Virus record (IMG/VR): IMGVR_UViG_3300034198_006912
Span: 1-56,096 of that record
Source: a virus
Strand: one strand, 5' to 3'
DNA length: 56,096 nucleotides
The translations under genes were made by a program, and so were the position numbers. Each line of letters opens with the position of its first letter. Position 1 is the first letter of the stretch. This document shows positions 19,237 to 53,352 of this stretch, one piece after another. The notes below the pieces were generated by a model. It ran no database searches. It was not told the DNA's origin and saw nothing but the letters and a program-made list of their open reading frames with translations.

Positions 19237-22068
19237 TTATGCCTCACAGCCTACGCATTCAATCTCAAATCCAGTAGGTGTTGTAGTTTTGAATTTTGTC
19301 TGCTTAACTTCATTTGTAGCAGAAGTCTTATCTTCTGTCAATAGGTGCTGCCGTTCAATTTTTTGCCCAATATCTTCAATGCTGGATTCAATCTTATTTC
19401 GGCAGTAATACAACCCTTTCAGACCTCTTTTCCATGCTTCGTAATGCGTGTTATGCAAGTACGAAACGTCCACAGGGTTGATAAAAAACAGGTTCACAGA
19501 CTGCCCTTGGTCAATATATTTCTGCCTGTCTGCTGCATGGCGAATAACCCACATCTGGTCAAGTTCAAAGGCAGTCTTGAACACAGACTTCTCTTCATCT
19601 GTGAGAATATCAAGATGCTGTACAGAACCCTTCTTTGCCCCCACAGAGCGCCAGACTGTTTTAATATCATCGTCAGATAATCCTTTTTCCTGCAATAATT
19701 GCAAAAACCGAGGATTCTTAAAAATGTGCGTGCCGTTCTCTGTTTTTTGAGAGAAAGACACGGCGCTGAAAGGCTCAATGCTGGGGCTTACATTGCCGCA
19801 CAGAATAGAACTGGAGGCATTAGGGGCAACAGCAATAAGGTGCATGTTCCTGCGCCACTGCATCCCTTTCCCTTCGATATAGTCCGGGCAACTTCCTTTA
19901 GATACAGCAATATCGTAAGTGGCGTCTTCCGCCTGTTCCCGGATATACGAGAACATTTCCACGTTAATGCGCGAGGCTTCTTCTGACTCGAAAGGAATCA
20001 GTTTATTCTGTAGATAACTATGGAACCCCATTGCTCCAAGCCCCAGACTACGCTCTCTGGAAGCGGAATAAAGAGCTTTGCGAATAGCATGTCTTGCAGA
20101 AGGTTTAAGGTGCGGTGCTTGAATAAAAGCGTCAATAACATTATCAAGCATCTTAATCAGGTCGTACACCATCGAGGTGTTGCGCCACTCATCGAATTTA
20201 GCTAAATTCACGGAACTAAGGCAGCATACAGCAGTTCGTTGTTCGTCTGTCGGTAGGTAAATCTCGTTACAGTTCCCCGTTAAGACACCGTTAAACATAA
20301 GGCGTCCTCTCTTAGGTTCAGTAGCGCAATATGTGTCAGAAATACGTCCAGTACGCTCTACTGATTGTACTTTAATAAACCGGCAAGCATCCCTGTTTGG
20401 CATACGGTTTTTATCTAAAATTAACCGTGAGCAATTAAGACCGAGTTCTAAAAGCCGCACAACGGCGGGGCCGTTAAAATTCAATAACCATACTTCACTA
20501 CAGTTATATTCCCCGTTCTCGCCACTGCCATCATTCTTCGGCAGTTCAAATACCCCAGCCTCACGTCTGTGAGACAAGGATGTATAAACACCTAATTCTT
20601 GCATCAACAGGTGGATTTCTTTAAGAAAAGAATAGTTTACCGAAGCAAGCTGGATATTAACCCCATTAGTGCTTTGGATAACACATCCATCCGCATCAAA
20701 TAGACCAGACAACCATTCCATAATTACACTGGCATAAAAGCCGGTAGGAACATAGAATTTATTGATGGGAGGAGAATAACTCCAACGGTAGCGATTATAG
20801 GTTGCATCATCAGATATTTTTCCTTTAAGTCTAGGGATGCACATAGCTTTAGGGGCATATATCCAAGAAAAATTATAGTCCTCGTTACCATCCCCGGCAT
20901 AAAATCCTTGTGAATACCAGTCTATTGCTGAGGTATGTTCACAATCTGGATATTCTTTGGGAAGACTGAATTTTTGCAGTTTGTCTTCTGGTTTAAGGTC
21001 TTTTGCGGCAACCTGCACAGGCGGCTGCCAATAATTTTTTTGAACATAGAACTTGTGTTCTGATGTACAATCAATAGTAATGCCATTATTGAATGTGACT
21101 CGGATAAGTTCTTTAGATTCTCCTGTTTTTCTCGGAGTTACAAGAGACCATTCCTCACCATTCCATACATGAACTTCTGTGTCAGCTACGCCAACAATAG
21201 GTACATATCCGTATTCTTTAGTCAGTATTTTAGTTTCTGGGGCTACACACAGATTGCTCGTATTAATACGAAGCCCAAGACGTTTTTGTTCTTCTGGCAG
21301 TGCTTTGTTAGCATTATCAATAAAAAAGAAATATGGTTCCCCAGTCTCAATACGAAGCATTAGCAGCTTGCTCCATAGTTCTCTGGCAGAAACTATGTCT
21401 GTTACTACCCCTGTGTGAGGGTCTTTAAGTTCCCATCTGTCGTCTTTAACAAACAGCTTTTCCATAAAAGAATCTGGAACAGAGACAGCATTATGGATGT
21501 TTAATGCCTTGCGTTCTACAGCTCCCCCGGTAGGTTTTCTCATATTGATAAATTCCATAATCTCAGGATGAGAAACACTAAGATATGCTGCGTAAGCGGC
21601 ACGGCGCGTACCTGCCTGTCTGTAAGCCAGCACCTTTCTATCGAACTGGGCAATGAACGGAATAGCGCCGGTTGATTCCCCGCCTCGTGATGTTTTGGTT
21701 TTATTAGTGCGTAGGAAAGACCATCCTGCCCCCAGACCTCCGCCCATAGCTGCAAGCCATGAGGACTCAGATTCATGGTCAATAATACCCTCAAGAGAGT
21801 CTCCTACCGCTGATAAAAAGCAGGAAATAGGAAGCCCGCGAGAAGTACCTCCATTTGCCAATACCGGGGTGGCAAACATAAACCATTGCTTGCTCACATA
21901 GCCATACAGTCTTTGAGCATGTGCTTGGTCATCTGCAAATGCCTTAGCAGCGCGGGCAAAAGCATCTTGCGGTGATTTTTCCTCTGGCATAAGGTATCTA
22001 TCTTTCAAAATACGCATAGCATATGGGTCAATAAGATTATCCCGTGAGTAATCAATCACAATGTCCAT
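19237..22068 (-). CDS. nrdA: Class I ribonucleotide reductase large (alpha) subunit with an intein (943 aa precursor)
   Basis: Extein features: GLPISCFLS (first active-site Cys, residue 83), SNL|CNEI (thiyl-radical Cys, residue 600), TAVCCLSSVNL (third active-site Cys), YY in GLKGLYYCRNK for radical transfer, and the C-terminal CVGC pair. An intein of about 326 residues (274-599) lies exactly before the radical Cys. Spliced NrdA would be about 617 aa and lacks an N-terminal ATP-cone, as in compact phage enzymes, so dATP shut-off is not expected. Works with NrdB encoded downstream. A terminator-like hairpin precedes the gene, so separate control is possible. Confidence 0.95.
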   Translation of the reverse strand: MDIVIDYSRDNLIDPYAMRILKDRYLMPEEKSPQDAFARAAKAFADDQAHAQRLYGYVSKQWFMFATPVLANGGTSRGLPISCFLSAVGDSLEGIIDHESESSWLAAMGGGLGAGWSFLRTNKTKTSRGGESTGAIPFIAQFDRKVLAYRQAGTRRAAYAAYLSVSHPEIMEFINMRKPTGGAVERKALNIHNAVSVPDSFMEKLFVKDDRWELKDPHTGVVTDIVSARELWSKLLMLRIETGEPYFFFIDNANKALPEEQKRLGLRINTSNLCVAPETKILTKEYGYVPIVGVADTEVHVWNGEEWSLVTPRKTGESKELIRVTFNNGITIDCTSEHKFYVQKNYWQPPVQVAAKDLKPEDKLQKFSLPKEYPDCEHTSAIDWYSQGFYAGDGNEDYNFSWIYAPKAMCIPRLKGKISDDATYNRYRWSYSPPINKFYVPTGFYASVIMEWLSGLFDADGCVIQSTNGVNIQLASVNYSFLKEIHLLMQELGVYTSLSHRREAGVFELPKNDGSGENGEYNCSEVWLLNFNGPAVVRLLELGLNCSRLILDKNRMPNRDACRFIKVQSVERTGRISDTYCATEPKRGRLMFNGVLTGNCNEIYLPTDEQRTAVCCLSSVNLAKFDEWRNTSMVYDLIKMLDNVIDAFIQAPHLKPSARHAIRKALYSASRERSLGLGAMGFHSYLQNKLIPFESEEASRINVEMFSYIREQAEDATYDIAVSKGSCPDYIEGKGMQWRRNMHLIAVAPNASSSILCGNVSPSIEPFSAVSFSQKTENGTHIFKNPRFLQLLQEKGLSDDDIKTVWRSVGAKKGSVQHLDILTDEEKSVFKTAFELDQMWVIRHAADRQKYIDQGQSVNLFFINPVDVSYLHNTHYEAWKRGLKGLYYCRNKIESSIEDIGQKIERQHLLTEDKTSATNEVKQTKFKTTTPTGFEIECVGCEA
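20272..21249 (-). mobile_element. Intein with LAGLIDADG-type homing endonuclease inside nrdA
   Basis: Encodes precursor residues 274-599. N-terminal splicing block CVAPETKIL, block B-like CTSEHKFYV, and C-terminal LTGN followed by Cys (+1). The penultimate His of most inteins is replaced by Gly. Two DOD endonuclease motifs are visible: GFYAGDGN (about residues 388-395) and LSGLFDADG (about 453-461). The insertion point is the catalytic SNLC motif, so splicing is required for RNR activity. Confidence 0.93.
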
Positions 22069-24013: not shown

Positions 24014-24632
24014 TTGTAATACCTTCGTTGTGTTCGGCGATAAACTTGTTAATCTGCTCAATAAGAGCAGCATCTTCTTCAGTGGATGCTGTGCCTCCCT
24101 TACGAGTAAATGCAAGAGTTGCAAACTTATCCCCTTTTACCTTGATAGAAAACGGCACAGTGCCCCAATCTTTCTTAACTGGAAATTCTTTTGCAAATGG
24201 AATCCACGTCTTGAGTTGTCCGGGAGTAATGCGGAAATTCACAAGCTCAGGCTTCTTTTTAGGAAACGTCACTTCCCCAATAAGGTAAGTGTAAAATCCT
24301 GCAATACCACGCTGACGCTGACGTTCTTCTGCACTAAACTCCTTTACGCCTTCCCATACTGGGAACGTCCTACCGCAGGCATTGCCGCCTTGTTTATCAG
24401 GGATGTTCACTCCTTTACGAACACCATCAAAGAAAATAGATTCGTTAATAACCTTTGTGGCATCTACAGGGTCGCGTTTGATAAGTTTATTAGAAACTTC
24501 AAGAAGACGAAAATCAATAGAAGCTGATTTGTATTCTTTTTCTTCTCCCTGAATTACAAAGAAGAACTTTGTAACAGTGGCTTCTTCTTCTTCAAGAAAT
24601 ACTTTTTCTTGGATTGTGGCAAGTCTTTTCAT
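24006..24632 (-). CDS. Probable ssDNA-binding protein (208 aa)
   Basis: Beta-rich, charged protein with N-terminal repeats of beta-strand patterns (TKFFFVIQGEEKEY, ASIDFRLLEVSN) and an acidic C-terminal third. Size, composition and position one base from small replication genes and next to PolA and a RecB-like nuclease resemble phage SSBs such as T7 gp2.5, but no OB-fold signature can be proven by eye. It does not show a short highly acidic tail like gp2.5 (it ends HNEGITNG). An alternative is a single-purpose recombination mediator. Confidence 0.45.
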   Translation of the reverse strand: MKRLATIQEKVFLEEEEATVTKFFFVIQGEEKEYKSASIDFRLLEVSNKLIKRDPVDATKVINESIFFDGVRKGVNIPDKQGGNACGRTFPVWEGVKEFSAEERQRQRGIAGFYTYLIGEVTFPKKKPELVNFRITPGQLKTWIPFAKEFPVKKDWGTVPFSIKVKGDKFATLAFTRKGGTASTEEDAALIEQINKFIAEHNEGITNG

Positions 24633-24877
24633 TATGCACCTTCCTTTTCAATGATTAAACCAGCAGCCGACAGATAAATGTCTAATTCATCAGATTCACT
24701 GGTGTATTTTTCAATACCGGCCTTACGAATTTTTAATACCTGCTTTAGCAGCTTGGTGTTATATCCTTTACTCTTTGCTTCGAGCCAGAGGTCTTTTACA
24801 TCTTCTCTAAGGCCGCTAATCTCGTCCTGCAAGCGTTCCACTCTATCAATATAAGATTTTACTTCATTATTTTGCAT
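24632..24877 (-). CDS. Hypothetical coiled-coil protein (81 aa)
   Basis: N-terminal heptads (VKSYIDRVERLQDEISGL) followed by LRKAGIEKYTSESDELD-like helices; acidic. This resembles GapR/DUF2312-type small DNA-binding proteins (IERLE.EK..L..D..D.. pattern and a distal AKxxGFD.K-like block, here EAKSKGYNTKLLKQVLKIRK). GapR binds overtwisted AT-rich DNA in alphaproteobacteria; if confirmed it would hint at an alphaproteobacterial host. Starts within the upstream gene's end. Confidence 0.6.
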   Translation of the reverse strand: MQNNEVKSYIDRVERLQDEISGLREDVKDLWLEAKSKGYNTKLLKQVLKIRKAGIEKYTSESDELDIYLSAAGLIIEKEGA

Positions 24878-32913: not shown

Positions 32914-33545
32914 CACTCCCCCTTCTTTTCTGCATGCGCTTTGCACATGGCAAGAAGCGCGTCTTTATGCACATGCCAAAAATCCAATGCGTCGTCATCC
33001 ATGTCGGCAATTACTTCGTCATCAAATGATTCCCAATCCGCGTGCGTATGGCGCTCGCAACCAATAGCCATAAAACCTTCGGTGATAATAATGCCCCACC
33101 TTAATCCTGTAAGTATTACCGGAGAGTTGCTTAGGATTTCACCTTCCAGATTGGCACCGTACAGATTGGCACCGCTCAGATTGGCACCGTACAGTTTGGC
33201 ACCGTACAGATTGGCACCTTCCAGATTGGCACCGTACAGTTTGGTACCGTTCAGACTGGCATCGCGCAGATTGGCACCGCTCAGATTGGCACCGCTCAGA
33301 TTGGCACCGCGCAGATTGGCACCGCTCAGATTGGCACCGTACAGTTTGGCATCGTACAGTTTGGCATCGTACAGATTGGCACCGCGCAGATTGGCACCGC
33401 TCAGATTGGCACCGTACAGATTGGCACCGCTCAGATTGGCACCGTACAGATTGGCTTTGTTCACCTCACATGCATAGCGCAAAGATTCATATTCACCATC
33501 TATAAATATATCTCCAGTAAATGTGTTTTTAATAACTACTCGCAT
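32913..33545 (-). CDS. Pentapeptide-repeat protein (210 aa)
   Basis: Residues about 30-125 are a run of A(N/K)LXG pentapeptides (for example ANLYGANLSGANL), expected to fold into a right-handed quadrilateral beta-helix. Flanking domains are unique: an N-terminal FTGDIFIDGEYE segment and a C-terminal helical part ending KAHAEKKGE. Some pentapeptide proteins (MfpA/Qnr type) mimic DNA and bind gyrase, but that role cannot be assumed here. The coding DNA is a tandem array of 15-bp units and so prone to expansion. Confidence 0.85.
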   Translation of the reverse strand: MRVVIKNTFTGDIFIDGEYESLRYACEVNKANLYGANLSGANLYGANLSGANLRGANLYDAKLYDAKLYGANLSGANLRGANLSGANLSGANLRDASLNGTKLYGANLEGANLYGAKLYGANLSGANLYGANLEGEILSNSPVILTGLRWGIIITEGFMAIGCERHTHADWESFDDEVIADMDDDALDFWHVHKDALLAMCKAHAEKKGE

Positions 33546-39960: not shown

Positions 39961-39976
39961 TTGAACGCTTGTTCAA
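39961..39976. repeat. Inverted repeat TTGAAC/GTTCAA
   Basis: Perfect 6-bp arms TTGAAC and GTTCAA separated by GCTT, immediately left of the first Fur-like box. Could be an operator or a hairpin. Confidence 0.7.
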
Positions 39977-39977
39977 C

Positions 39978-40042
39978 TGAGAATGATTCGCAATCGCATG
40001 AAGCATAAAAACCTAACCAGTATCAGTTGAGAATGATTCTTA
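39978..40042. promoter_or_regulatory. Two Fur-box-like 15-mers, 50 bp apart
   Basis: TGAGAATGATTCGCA (39978-39992) and TGAGAATGATTCTTA (40028-40042) fit the 7-1-7 Fur pattern TGATAATnATTATCA at 10-12 of 14 positions. The exact 50-bp spacing puts them on the same DNA face, roughly. Binding by host Fur is inference. Confidence 0.45.
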
Positions 40043-40090
40043 ATTGCAATACTACTTAAAGTTGCATTCATAGAATCCCATCTGTGATTA

Positions 40091-40143: not shown

Positions 40144-40349
40144 AGCAGAACGCAATACTATCTATGGTTGCATAAAACTACTGTGACATAAATACCACAG
40201 GGGGGATATATCAAGGTTGCATAAGAAACCTCCTATTCAACCATGGATTGAGCGCATAAAAAACCTAATGATTAACAAAAGTTAACAAAGGTTAATAAAA
40301 AAGCGCCTAGATTTCTTGTGATTTTCTTAAGATATTCTAAAGGAAGTTA

Positions 40350-40834: not shown

Positions 40835-40863
40835 TTGACAAACAGTGTTACATGGACTATATT
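40835..40863 (+). promoter_or_regulatory. Sigma70 promoter upstream of the palindrome arrays
   Basis: Perfect TTGACA (40835), 17-bp spacer, TATATT (40858). The transcript would start near 40870 and run through all CTTAAG and most CTATAG copies before the glycosyltransferase gene. Confidence 0.75.
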
Positions 40864-40871
40864 ATATATAT

Positions 40872-41005
40872 CTTAAGATATACTATAGATATACCTTAAG
40901 GAATATCTTATACCTTAAGAAATAAAATATATCTTAAGATATAAAGTATTCCTTAAGATATACCTTAAGTAATAGTAATCTTAAGTACTTAATATATACC
41001 TTAAG
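40872..41005. repeat. Array of eight CTTAAG palindromes
   Basis: CTTAAG begins at 40872, 40895, 40914, 40933, 40952, 40964, 40980 and 41000; most intervals are 19-23 bp. Flanks are A/T only and often TAT or TAC. No coding function. Possible iterons or operators. Confidence 0.85.
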
Positions 41006-41030
41006 ATATTCTATATGTAATATATTATAC

Positions 41031-41122
41031 CTATAGATATTTATAATATAACTATAGGAATATAAGATATATCTATAGGTATTTATATCTTACCTATAGG
41101 GATACATAAGATATTCCTATAG
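41031..41122. repeat. Array of CTATAG palindromes at 21-bp spacing
   Basis: CTATAG begins at 41031, 41052, 41073, 41094 and 41117 (intervals 21, 21, 21, 23), with one more at 40883. The last copy ends 12 bp before the late -35 box. The two-helical-turn spacing suggests cooperative protein binding on one face. Confidence 0.85.
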
Positions 41123-41134
41123 GGGCAAGACTAT

Positions 41135-41164
41135 TTGACAAATAGAATTGTTCTGTGCTATACT
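41135..41164 (+). promoter_or_regulatory. Late promoter, near-leaderless
   Basis: TTGACA (41135), 18-bp spacer, TATACT (41159). Transcription should start about 41170-41172, only a few bases before ATG 41174, with no Shine-Dalgarno. Confidence 0.8.
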
Positions 41165-41173
41165 GTTCGTGTT

Positions 41174-41893
41174 ATGAAAATTAAACTGCAAATTTCTGTG
41201 ATGTCTGCCCGTGGCTGGTCGCCCATGTTCGGGCATTGCTACACCTCGATGATTCATCACGTTATGCGTAATGGAATCAAGAACTTTGAGCTTGACGAAA
41301 TTATTATAGACACTACATCAGGCCAGTCCTTAATCCATGATGGAAGACATCAAGCATGTGTGCAAGCTATGCAGAAAGGATGCACCCACATCCTGATGCT
41401 GGACGATGACATGCAGTTCACTCCAGACCTGTTGGATATTTTCTTTAATCGTCGTGTAGCTATCATTGCTGCAAACTGTCTGCGTAAACGTGACCAGCAA
41501 GCAGAGCCTACTGCTATAAAACTGGACAACACCATCCACTTCCCTGAAAACAGGACAGACATGGAAGAGGTGCTTCAGGTAGGTACAGGAATAATTCTTA
41601 TTAGCCTGAATGCTATCAGGCACCTGCCATACCCGTACTTCTCCTCGCCGTGGATTGATAGCATCAACTCCCATATGGGGGAAGATTACTATTTCTGTAA
41701 AAAAGCACGCGAACATGGCCTTTCTGTGCATGTAGATAATCTGGTAAGTAACGCCTCTGCTCATATGGGCGAGTTTGCTTTCCATTACGGCAATAACTTC
41801 CCGCTTTCAGGTCGTAGCTTTTCAGACCTTTCCCATATTAGAGCTATTCAGAAAAACCCTGCTGTGGAAGAAGTCCTCAAACTTATCAATTAA
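41174..41893 (+). CDS. GT-A type glycosyltransferase-like protein (239 aa)
   Basis: The start at 41174 (MKIKLQISVMSARG) is chosen because the promoter -10 box ends at 41164, so an upstream TTG start would not be transcribed. Contains a nucleotide-sugar-type LMLDDDMQFTPDLL (DxD-like metal site, about residues 79-92), then VGTGIILIS and HMGEDYYFCKKAREHG as in family 2-like glycosyltransferases. With the methyltransferase and GT32-like genes it forms a sugar-modification cassette ahead of the terminase. Substrate (host surface, DNA or virion glycan) unknown. Confidence 0.75.
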   Translation: MKIKLQISVMSARGWSPMFGHCYTSMIHHVMRNGIKNFELDEIIIDTTSGQSLIHDGRHQACVQAMQKGCTHILMLDDDMQFTPDLLDIFFNRRVAIIAANCLRKRDQQAEPTAIKLDNTIHFPENRTDMEEVLQVGTGIILISLNAIRHLPYPYFSSPWIDSINSHMGEDYYFCKKAREHGLSVHVDNLVSNASAHMGEFAFHYGNNFPLSGRSFSDLSHIRAIQKNPAVEEVLKLIN

Positions 41894-43344: not shown

Positions 43345-43773
43345 ATGGAAAAAGAGTACGCCACAAAAAAAGAAAAATTTATTGCTGTTTTCTGGGAAGC
43401 TGTTGAAAATAACATCCCTGAAAGAGAAGCATTAAAGATTGCCAAGCTGGAAGCTGGCTATGTGGACTCTATGTCTTTAAGCAACATCCTTTCTCAAATT
43501 GAAGAAGATTTGCTCAGACATGCAAACCTTGAAATAAAACTGGCGCTGCCTAAAGCTATTAGCAAGCTCAAAGGGGTGCTGGATGACCCTGAACAAAAAG
43601 GCGCTACGAACGTAATTGCGGCTTCGGCCAGTGTTCTTGACCGCGCCGGTGTAGTTAAAAAAGAATCTAAAGAAGTAAACATCACTATGCCATCAGGGGT
43701 TGCCTTTATGCCTCCCAAACTTCCGGTGGACGTAGATAATGCCGTTGTTAATCCCTCCGACGTTTCTTCCTAG
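43345..43773 (+). CDS. Terminase small subunit-like protein (142 aa)
   Basis: N-terminal helical region MEKEYATKKEKFIAVFWEAV with a helix-turn-helix-like REALKIAKLEAGYVDSMS, then a helical middle (LEIKLALPKAISKLKGVLDD) typical of terminase small subunits that bind pac/cos DNA. Followed by another short gene and TerL. Translation probably starts leaderless from the consensus promoter just upstream. Confidence 0.7.
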   Translation: MEKEYATKKEKFIAVFWEAVENNIPEREALKIAKLEAGYVDSMSLSNILSQIEEDLLRHANLEIKLALPKAISKLKGVLDDPEQKGATNVIAASASVLDRAGVVKKESKEVNITMPSGVAFMPPKLPVDVDNAVVNPSDVSS

Positions 43774-52383: not shown

Positions 52384-52446
52384 GTCTATTACTATAGCCA
52401 GTATAGCGTCTATTGTCTATAGTAATGTGCATTAAGGGATATAATA
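52384..52446 (+). promoter_or_regulatory. Possible tail-gene regulatory segment with two CTATAG copies
   Basis: CTATAG at 52392 and 52417 (25 bp apart), each preceded by TCTATT-like sequence, just after the terminator. A TATAAT at 52440 is 17 bp after the second CTATAG but overlaps the start region of the next gene, so it is unlikely to drive it. RBS AAGGGA is present. Confidence 0.45.
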
Positions 52447-53352
52447 ATGGCTATAGATAATTTCTTAGGATTAGTGAATCGGGCATTAAAACCTCTTAAC
52501 GAGGTAGTGCTTAATTCATCTAATTTTGACACGGCTCAAGGCGTTTATGCCGACGCCAGAGATGCCGTAAACCAAGCCTTGTATGATATATACACTTATA
52601 AGAACGTATTGTGGCCTTTTTTGTTCTCAGAGTTGACTTTTCAGACAGAAAGAGGTATAATAGAGTATATTAAACCTTCTGGTGTTTCTAAGGTCGATTG
52701 GGCATCGTTTACGGTAGAACGTACAAAACGTACTGTAACGTCGCTAACTCGTATTGGAACTACGGCAACAGCTGTAACTAGCGCCCCTCATACTTTCCTT
52801 ACAGGAGATTATGTAGAGATTATTGGCGCTGCCCAAAACGGGTATAATACGACAAATGTGCCGATTACGGTAATTGACTCAATAACTTTTACTTACGCCG
52901 TAACGGATAATACTCTTACTACCCCTGCAACAGGGACTATTATTGCTAAGTCTAACACACTGACTAAAAAACCGTTAGTGTATGTAGATAAAGATGAATA
53001 CATAAAAGCATATTCCGAAGATGTGGAAAACGCTACGGCAGCGACCTTTACCACTCCTCGGTACGTAAGTAGAAAACCTAATAATAATTTTATAATTTTT
53101 GACGCTCCTGACAGAGCCTACGACATTAAATACAGCGCGTATTCTGTGCCGTCAAAACTTACGTTATTTAGCGACACGCACCTAGTCCCAGAGCAATACG
53201 AAGGCGCAATCATAGATAAAGCACTTCATTATATGTACATGTTTAGAGATAATCTGGAACAGGCTTCTGTAGCTAACTCTCGTGGGGATGATAAATTATC
53301 TGGCATGATTAGGGTACTTTCCCCGTTTGCCAATAACATGGTAACACCGTAA
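52447..53352 (+). CDS. Tail tube/adaptor-like protein (301 aa)
   Basis: N-terminus MAIDNFLGLVNRALKPLNE, then LYDIYTYKNVLWPFLFSEL and a beta domain (ITVIDSITFTYAVT). C-terminal helices (HLVPEQYEGAIIDKALHYM). Resembles podoviral gp11-type tail tube or P22 gp4/gp10-like adaptors. It is the first tail gene and originally coupled (TAATG) to the nozzle gene before a homing-endonuclease insertion. Confidence 0.7.
   Translation: MAIDNFLGLVNRALKPLNEVVLNSSNFDTAQGVYADARDAVNQALYDIYTYKNVLWPFLFSELTFQTERGIIEYIKPSGVSKVDWASFTVERTKRTVTSLTRIGTTATAVTSAPHTFLTGDYVEIIGAAQNGYNTTNVPITVIDSITFTYAVTDNTLTTPATGTIIAKSNTLTKKPLVYVDKDEYIKAYSEDVENATAATFTTPRYVSRKPNNNFIIFDAPDRAYDIKYSAYSVPSKLTLFSDTHLVPEQYEGAIIDKALHYMYMFRDNLEQASVANSRGDDKLSGMIRVLSPFANNMVTP

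Follow-up and report, generated by a model that had tools for sequence, protein, structure and literature searches.

In the window, a single linear virus record of 56,096 nt (IMGVR_UViG_3300034198_006912), the gap between two tandem promoter-like sequences, P1 and P2, is filled by 14 palindromic sites, eight centred on CTTAAG and six on CTATAG (40860-41130). The array stands at the divergence of the leftward replication genes and the rightward late genes. Together with the versions that relatives carry at the same place, it suggests a switch, not described before, for control (or for replication start). Our tentative reading is that the array is a multi-copy operator for a predicted dimeric, sequence-specific DNA-binding protein controlling P1 and P2. 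The region is organized as follows.

40321..40336, lone upstream CTTAAG site ATTTTCTTAAGATATT (CTTAAG at 40326), in the same spacer as the array; top weight-matrix match outside the array
40835..40863, plus strand, P1, sigma70-type, TTGACA-17-TATATT, 11/12 consensus; reads into the array; has an equivalent in the loci of relatives
40848..41097, AT-richest 250-bp window of the entire record (81%)
40867..41005, left block, CTTAAG at 40872, 40895, 40914, 40933, 40952, 40964, 40980 and 41000, CTATAG at 40883; extended site TATAYCTTAAGRTATA
41026..41122, right block, CTATAG at 41031, 41052, 41073, 41094 and 41117; steps 21, 21, 21 and 23
41135..41164, plus strand, P2, consensus match TTGACA-18-TATACT; same layout in relatives L196 and L048
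41174..41893, plus strand, leading gene of the rightward block; 239-aa product weakly similar to glycosyltransferases

Each hexamer is embedded in a degenerate 16-bp palindrome, TATAYCTTAAGRTATA, with half-site conservation of T 21/28, A 24/28, T 24/28, A 18/28 and Y 24/28. A weight matrix made from these sites finds nothing comparable elsewhere in the window. The preliminary description of this DNA had placed eight CTTAAG and five CTATAG hexamers exactly where they are found here, and had missed the sixth CTATAG, at 40883; the 12-bp gap that it gave between the array and the -35 box of P2 is also correct. It had proposed a compositional permutation as a check, and the array lies far beyond what AT-rich DNA would produce. 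Shuffling this AT-rich stretch 2000 times with its dinucleotides preserved gave on average 0.11 CTTAAG (maximum 2, observed 8) and 0.78 CTATAG (observed 6), ruling out plain AT-rich DNA as the cause. Elsewhere in the genome CTTAAG is under-represented (2 versus 15.2 expected under an order-4 Markov model) and CTATAG is at expectation (14 versus 13.2, same model). The retention of the array is striking because the genome otherwise avoids 6-bp palindromes, CTTAAG included.

The scarcity of short palindromes is general outside the array, where 6-bp palindromes number 326 against 769 expected, less than half; TTTAAA (27.7 expected) and GATATC (16.7 expected) do not occur. GATC is fully missing from the window (0 versus 154 expected). 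This scarcity is a very strong restriction-avoidance signature.

Counting the site at 40883, the consecutive steps through the array are 11, 12, 19, 19, 19, 12, 16, 20, 31, 21, 21, 21 and 23 bp. The CTATAG block is highly regular (CV 0.04, p 0.0002; 10.5-bp phase coherence 0.89), and the CTTAAG block is looser (CV 0.18, p 0.03; coherence 0.28), so that the spacing of two helical turns proposed earlier describes the right block well and the left block only loosely. Over all sites, a Rayleigh test of 10.5-bp phasing is weak (p 0.02, or 0.07 with a free period). Uniform helical phasing is not supported, given the 19-bp steps of the left block and the discrete steps of 12-13, 32-34 and 44-47 bp that separate the sites in relatives. 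The right block keeps to 21 bp and the left runs at about 19 bp, interrupted by insertions of 11-12 bp, so packing, not strict helical phasing, suits the array as a whole.

P1 and P2 were called as consensus matches, and the calls rest mainly on the 11/12 match and on conservation of the layout; promoter-like sites in the region overall show no excess in the scanner (6 versus 7.4 in shuffles). The centre of the first palindromic site falls at about +5 from the P1 start. The earlier placement of the array within the transcribed leader of the promoter at 40835 is supported. The -10 box of P2 ends 9 nt before the ATG at 41174, which would leave the first gene with almost no leader.

The rightward genes (41-55 kb and 1-12 kb) include those for packaging and structure, and among the leftward genes (12.7-39.6 kb) are polymerase A, a DnaB-like helicase, primase, ribonucleotide reductase and ThyX. 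Homologues of the terminase, portal, coat, DNA polymerase, helicase and primase of HMO-2011-type phages occur in the conserved order. Identity to HMO-2011 and the Roseobacter CRP phages is 40% for the portal, 38% for the terminase and 38% over full length for the polymerase, which makes this phage a distant HMO-2011-type podophage; the coat (29%) and the helicase and primase (27-32%) are weaker. The group, described as dominant and broadly distributed in the ocean, has a polymerase with a partial DnaJ domain carrying two CXXCXGXG repeats (PMC9038755). The polymerase in the window has one such repeat (CKTCDGKG, residue 316) and a further CPDC at residue 352. Blastn with 4 kb against phages gave no nucleotide-level relative, and single-protein scans of IMG/VR with the window proteins gave no close one. 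Genome contigs yielded only distant portal relatives, mostly in MAGs, and no taxonomic host for the window.

The order of P1, AT-rich leader and P2 is found in 17 HMO-2011-type relatives identified by a tandem-promoter scan, a list selected for both promoters. Leaders in relatives are 140-390 bp long and AT-rich, contain degenerate palindromes and are bounded by the two promoters. An independent sample was gathered with the conserved protein encoded behind P2 as the query; of its 80 loci, 79 have P1 upstream (6% by chance in shuffles and 10.6% in random windows). The 59 non-redundant leaders of these loci contain on average 2.75 CACTTAAGTG-like sites, compared with 0.17 in shuffles. With the motif taken from HMO-2011 alone, a hold-out test gave 29 matches in 16 other leaders against 2.3 expected (maximum 7). 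Site density is 27 times higher in the leader than in the rest of the locus (12 loci). At this stringency no site is present in 7 of the 59 leaders, and among the 17 several contain at most one. A scan for all palindromic 10-mers was too coarse to deal with the degenerate sites that most relatives carry. The first site lies at a median of +28 from the P1 start (interquartile range 19-31), and the distance from the last site to P2 is variable (32-120 bp, 10-90%).

The motif itself differs between lineages: it is CACTTAAGTG in HMO-2011, TACTTAAGTA, repeated, in L048, CACCTTAAGTG with CTATAG in L196, ACTAWTAGT (spotted by eye) in CRP-9 and L347, and TATAYCTTAAGRTATA with CTATAG in the window. The relative that best links these motifs to the window is L196, with both CTTAAG and CTATAG between its P1 and P2. 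Among the contigs obtained in a blind fetch with the CTTAAG-array pattern were HMO-2011-like phages: L048, and a single phage type represented by L052/L091. Near-exact sites in HMO-2011 hardly occur outside the leader (three of five in the genome lie in it). HMO-2011, CRP-1, CRP-345 and CRP-603 share with the window the gene order around the site and the succession of P1, AT-rich palindromic leader and P2; they differ in that their sites are CACTTAAGTG-like, fewer and often in spaced pairs, and in that their first gene encodes a 71-aa protein missing from the window. Relatives thus carry such arrays at the same place, as the preliminary description had asked of its own proposal. The CTTAAG cluster of L052/L091 lies upstream, not downstream, of the rightward promoter, and inspection by eye found no such array in the pelagiphages HTVC115P and HTVC103P or in RHph_N3_19. 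Given the L052/L091 arrangement and the arrayless HTVC115P and HTVC103P, not all of the wider group shares this layout. Within the open-licence literature, PMC9038755 and PMC6918029, on HMO-2011-type genomes, do not describe the control region or a palindrome array.

An alignment of leaders from 23 relatives, chosen for TTCTTTG, contains an invariant TTCTTTG[CT]TAA in the middle of the leader, between site pairs.

The conserved protein of about 71 aa (KKSVKLYTDNVL..LHIPHSDVFYVR..) is encoded directly behind P2 in relatives (L123:2108-2320; L368-L447), in the slot that gene 41174..41893 occupies in the window. Its start overlaps a P2-like TTGACA-16-TAAAAC, so that promoter and coding constraints seem to coincide. 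Its Pfam and PHROGs matches are all sub-threshold, it has no sequence match in the PDB, and its predicted model, of moderate confidence, has no significant match to solved folds. Hmmsearch of all six frames found no copy in the window. The protein was dropped as a common binder, being absent from the window and having no significant fold match. Pfam and PHROGs scans of early proteins of the window and HMO-2011, a set that took in part of the small early ORFs, found no regulator or repressor-like domain; nor did the scanned proteins, again with part of the small ORFs, include an initiator-like gene of a known family.

In lambda-type oR/oL, a dimeric protein binds several dyad-symmetric sites packed at about 20-24 bp, with promoters at the edges. 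The array likewise consists of dyad-symmetric sites packed at a control region between promoters, and its sites begin at or near a promoter start as in a lambda-type operator. It differs in having 14 sites instead of 3, two types of centre (CTTAAG and CTATAG), sites mainly downstream of P1, and no recognised repressor gene; none of the genes neighbouring the array encodes a repressor-like domain. Operator and iteron arrays are already known in kind, and the one in the window adds a new version.

As an operator, the 14 dyad-symmetric sites would occupy the transcribed leader between tandem promoters that drive the rightward (late) block. Dimers of a protein, presumably the phage's own, would bind the sites in a row, probably cooperatively, from the P1 start to just upstream of P2. 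The bound dimers would shut P1 or stop elongation from it and would determine how active P2 is, this sign of regulation being a proposal, and the outcome would be a switch in rightward transcription during infection. Tandem dyads that are perfect and loopless, together with the lack of an RNA fold shared among relatives, speak for a DNA-binding protein that acts as a dimer. Of the earlier interpretation, the strict tandem dyad symmetry is supported; no specific regulator was recognised among the proteins scanned. In relatives the first site is near the P1 start and the distance of the last site to P2 varies, an arrangement that suits regulation of P1 more than a classical activation of P2. The near confinement of near-exact sites to the leader in HMO-2011 suggests that the protein would serve one locus, either a late-block switch or an origin. 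Counting against the operator are the lack of a recognised regulator among the scanned proteins, the absence of the 71-aa protein from the window, the arrayless members of the group and the upstream cluster of L052/L091.

The AT-richest point of the window, near a minimum of GC skew, also counts against the operator, as it suits a replication origin equally. The palindromes would then be iterons for a phage initiator and the AT-rich leader an unwinding element, with P1 transcription opening or priming the DNA, as in lambda-like iterons or a T7/T4-like promoter with an AT-rich stretch. The AT-richest window overlaps the P1-P2 stretch in HMO-2011 also, and partly in CRP-345, and the cumulative GC-skew minimum is nearby in all three genomes (about 0.3-1.4 kb). 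However, the skew is confounded, as it turns wherever gene direction turns. In the origins of lambda (bound by O) and of iteron plasmids, iterons of about 20 bp with dyad symmetry lie in AT-rich DNA. The array resembles these in its dyad-symmetric units of about 20 bp and in its place at the AT-richest site of the genome, and the near-exact sites of HMO-2011 are distributed as for a single dedicated locus. It differs in having more sites and flanking sigma70-type promoters, and in lacking a recognised initiator gene (Pfam or PHROGs, proteins scanned) and DnaA boxes. No TTWTNCACA occurs within 39.0-41.2 kb, which counts against a DnaA-dependent origin. Nor would an origin need the first site to keep close to the P1 start, or P2 to be conserved at the other end. 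We consider an origin rather unlikely. The operator is preferred, with the origin close behind, and the two can coexist. Indeed, the promoter-array-promoter cassette could conceivably be a new control element, widespread in HMO-2011-type phages, that combines a late switch with a replication start and is read by a novel protein family whose target sequence has shifted between lineages, but this is still more doubtful.

It is improbable that the sites are targets of the small terminase subunit (TerS) at the initiation of packaging, or of a recombination protein such as an integrase. In other phages TerS binds repeated sites, and the TerS homologue of the window (43345-43773, 36% identity to CRP-212) is conserved in the family. 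The location upstream of the late block, between promoters, would be unusual for pac, however. Relatives of the HMO-2011 type may encode an integrase, and CRP-3 does integrate (PMC6918029), but no integrase was recognised in the window, though the array is strongest there.

Recognition by a host or generic protein, either CtrA (TTAA-N7-TTAA) or a GapR encoded by the phage, is just as improbable. The closest cultured relatives infect alphaproteobacteria, and the window encodes the following protein.

24632-24877, minus strand, phage-encoded GapR (PF10073, E 1.3e-19; solved GapR chains matched at up to 4e-14)

GapR was reported "for the first time" in a phage genome, that of an Erythrobacter phage, in 2025 (PMC12185513). 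It prefers AT-rich overtwisted DNA and makes no sequence-specific base contacts (PMC8510090), and it was found in the window only and not in the records of 20 relatives searched, some of them fragments. It would therefore leave the precise palindromes unexplained, and was dropped as the specific binder. CtrA was rejected for the window, as TTAA-N7-TTAA is absent from the array; the steps in relatives are mostly 12-13 bp, not 11 (L048 has 11).

Least probable of all is that the leader acts as RNA, its palindromes forming hairpins that control elongation or translation: it folds better than shuffles (z -5.4, and z -3.0 in one relative), but the palindromes are loopless, such folding is a trivial result of repeated self-complementary units, RNAalifold found no common pair in 23 aligned leaders, and there is no Rfam match.

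The preferred operator reading would imply a DNA-binding protein family so far unrecognised in HMO-2011-type genomes. The locus, about 300 bp long and conserved in place while varying in sequence, is a concrete and direct test bed for regulation or replication start.

The tail genes had been described as preceded by two CTATAG. There are three (52392, 52417 and 52451) within 65 bp (52392-52456), between a terminator-like hairpin and a tail gene start at 52447. Their flanks are unlike those of the array sites, lacking TATAY, and they are not among the best 40 weight-matrix matches of the array. The 1.5-kb noncoding spacer contains two Fur-box-like repeats, at 39973-39998 and 40023-40048 (TGAGAATGATTC followed by CAAT or TAAT). 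Among the coding regions, the gene for the large subunit of ribonucleotide reductase is interrupted by a LAGLIDADG-type intein (19237-22068, minus strand), and the gene for a pentapeptide-repeat protein contains 20.6 copies of a 15-bp coding tandem repeat (33147-33455).
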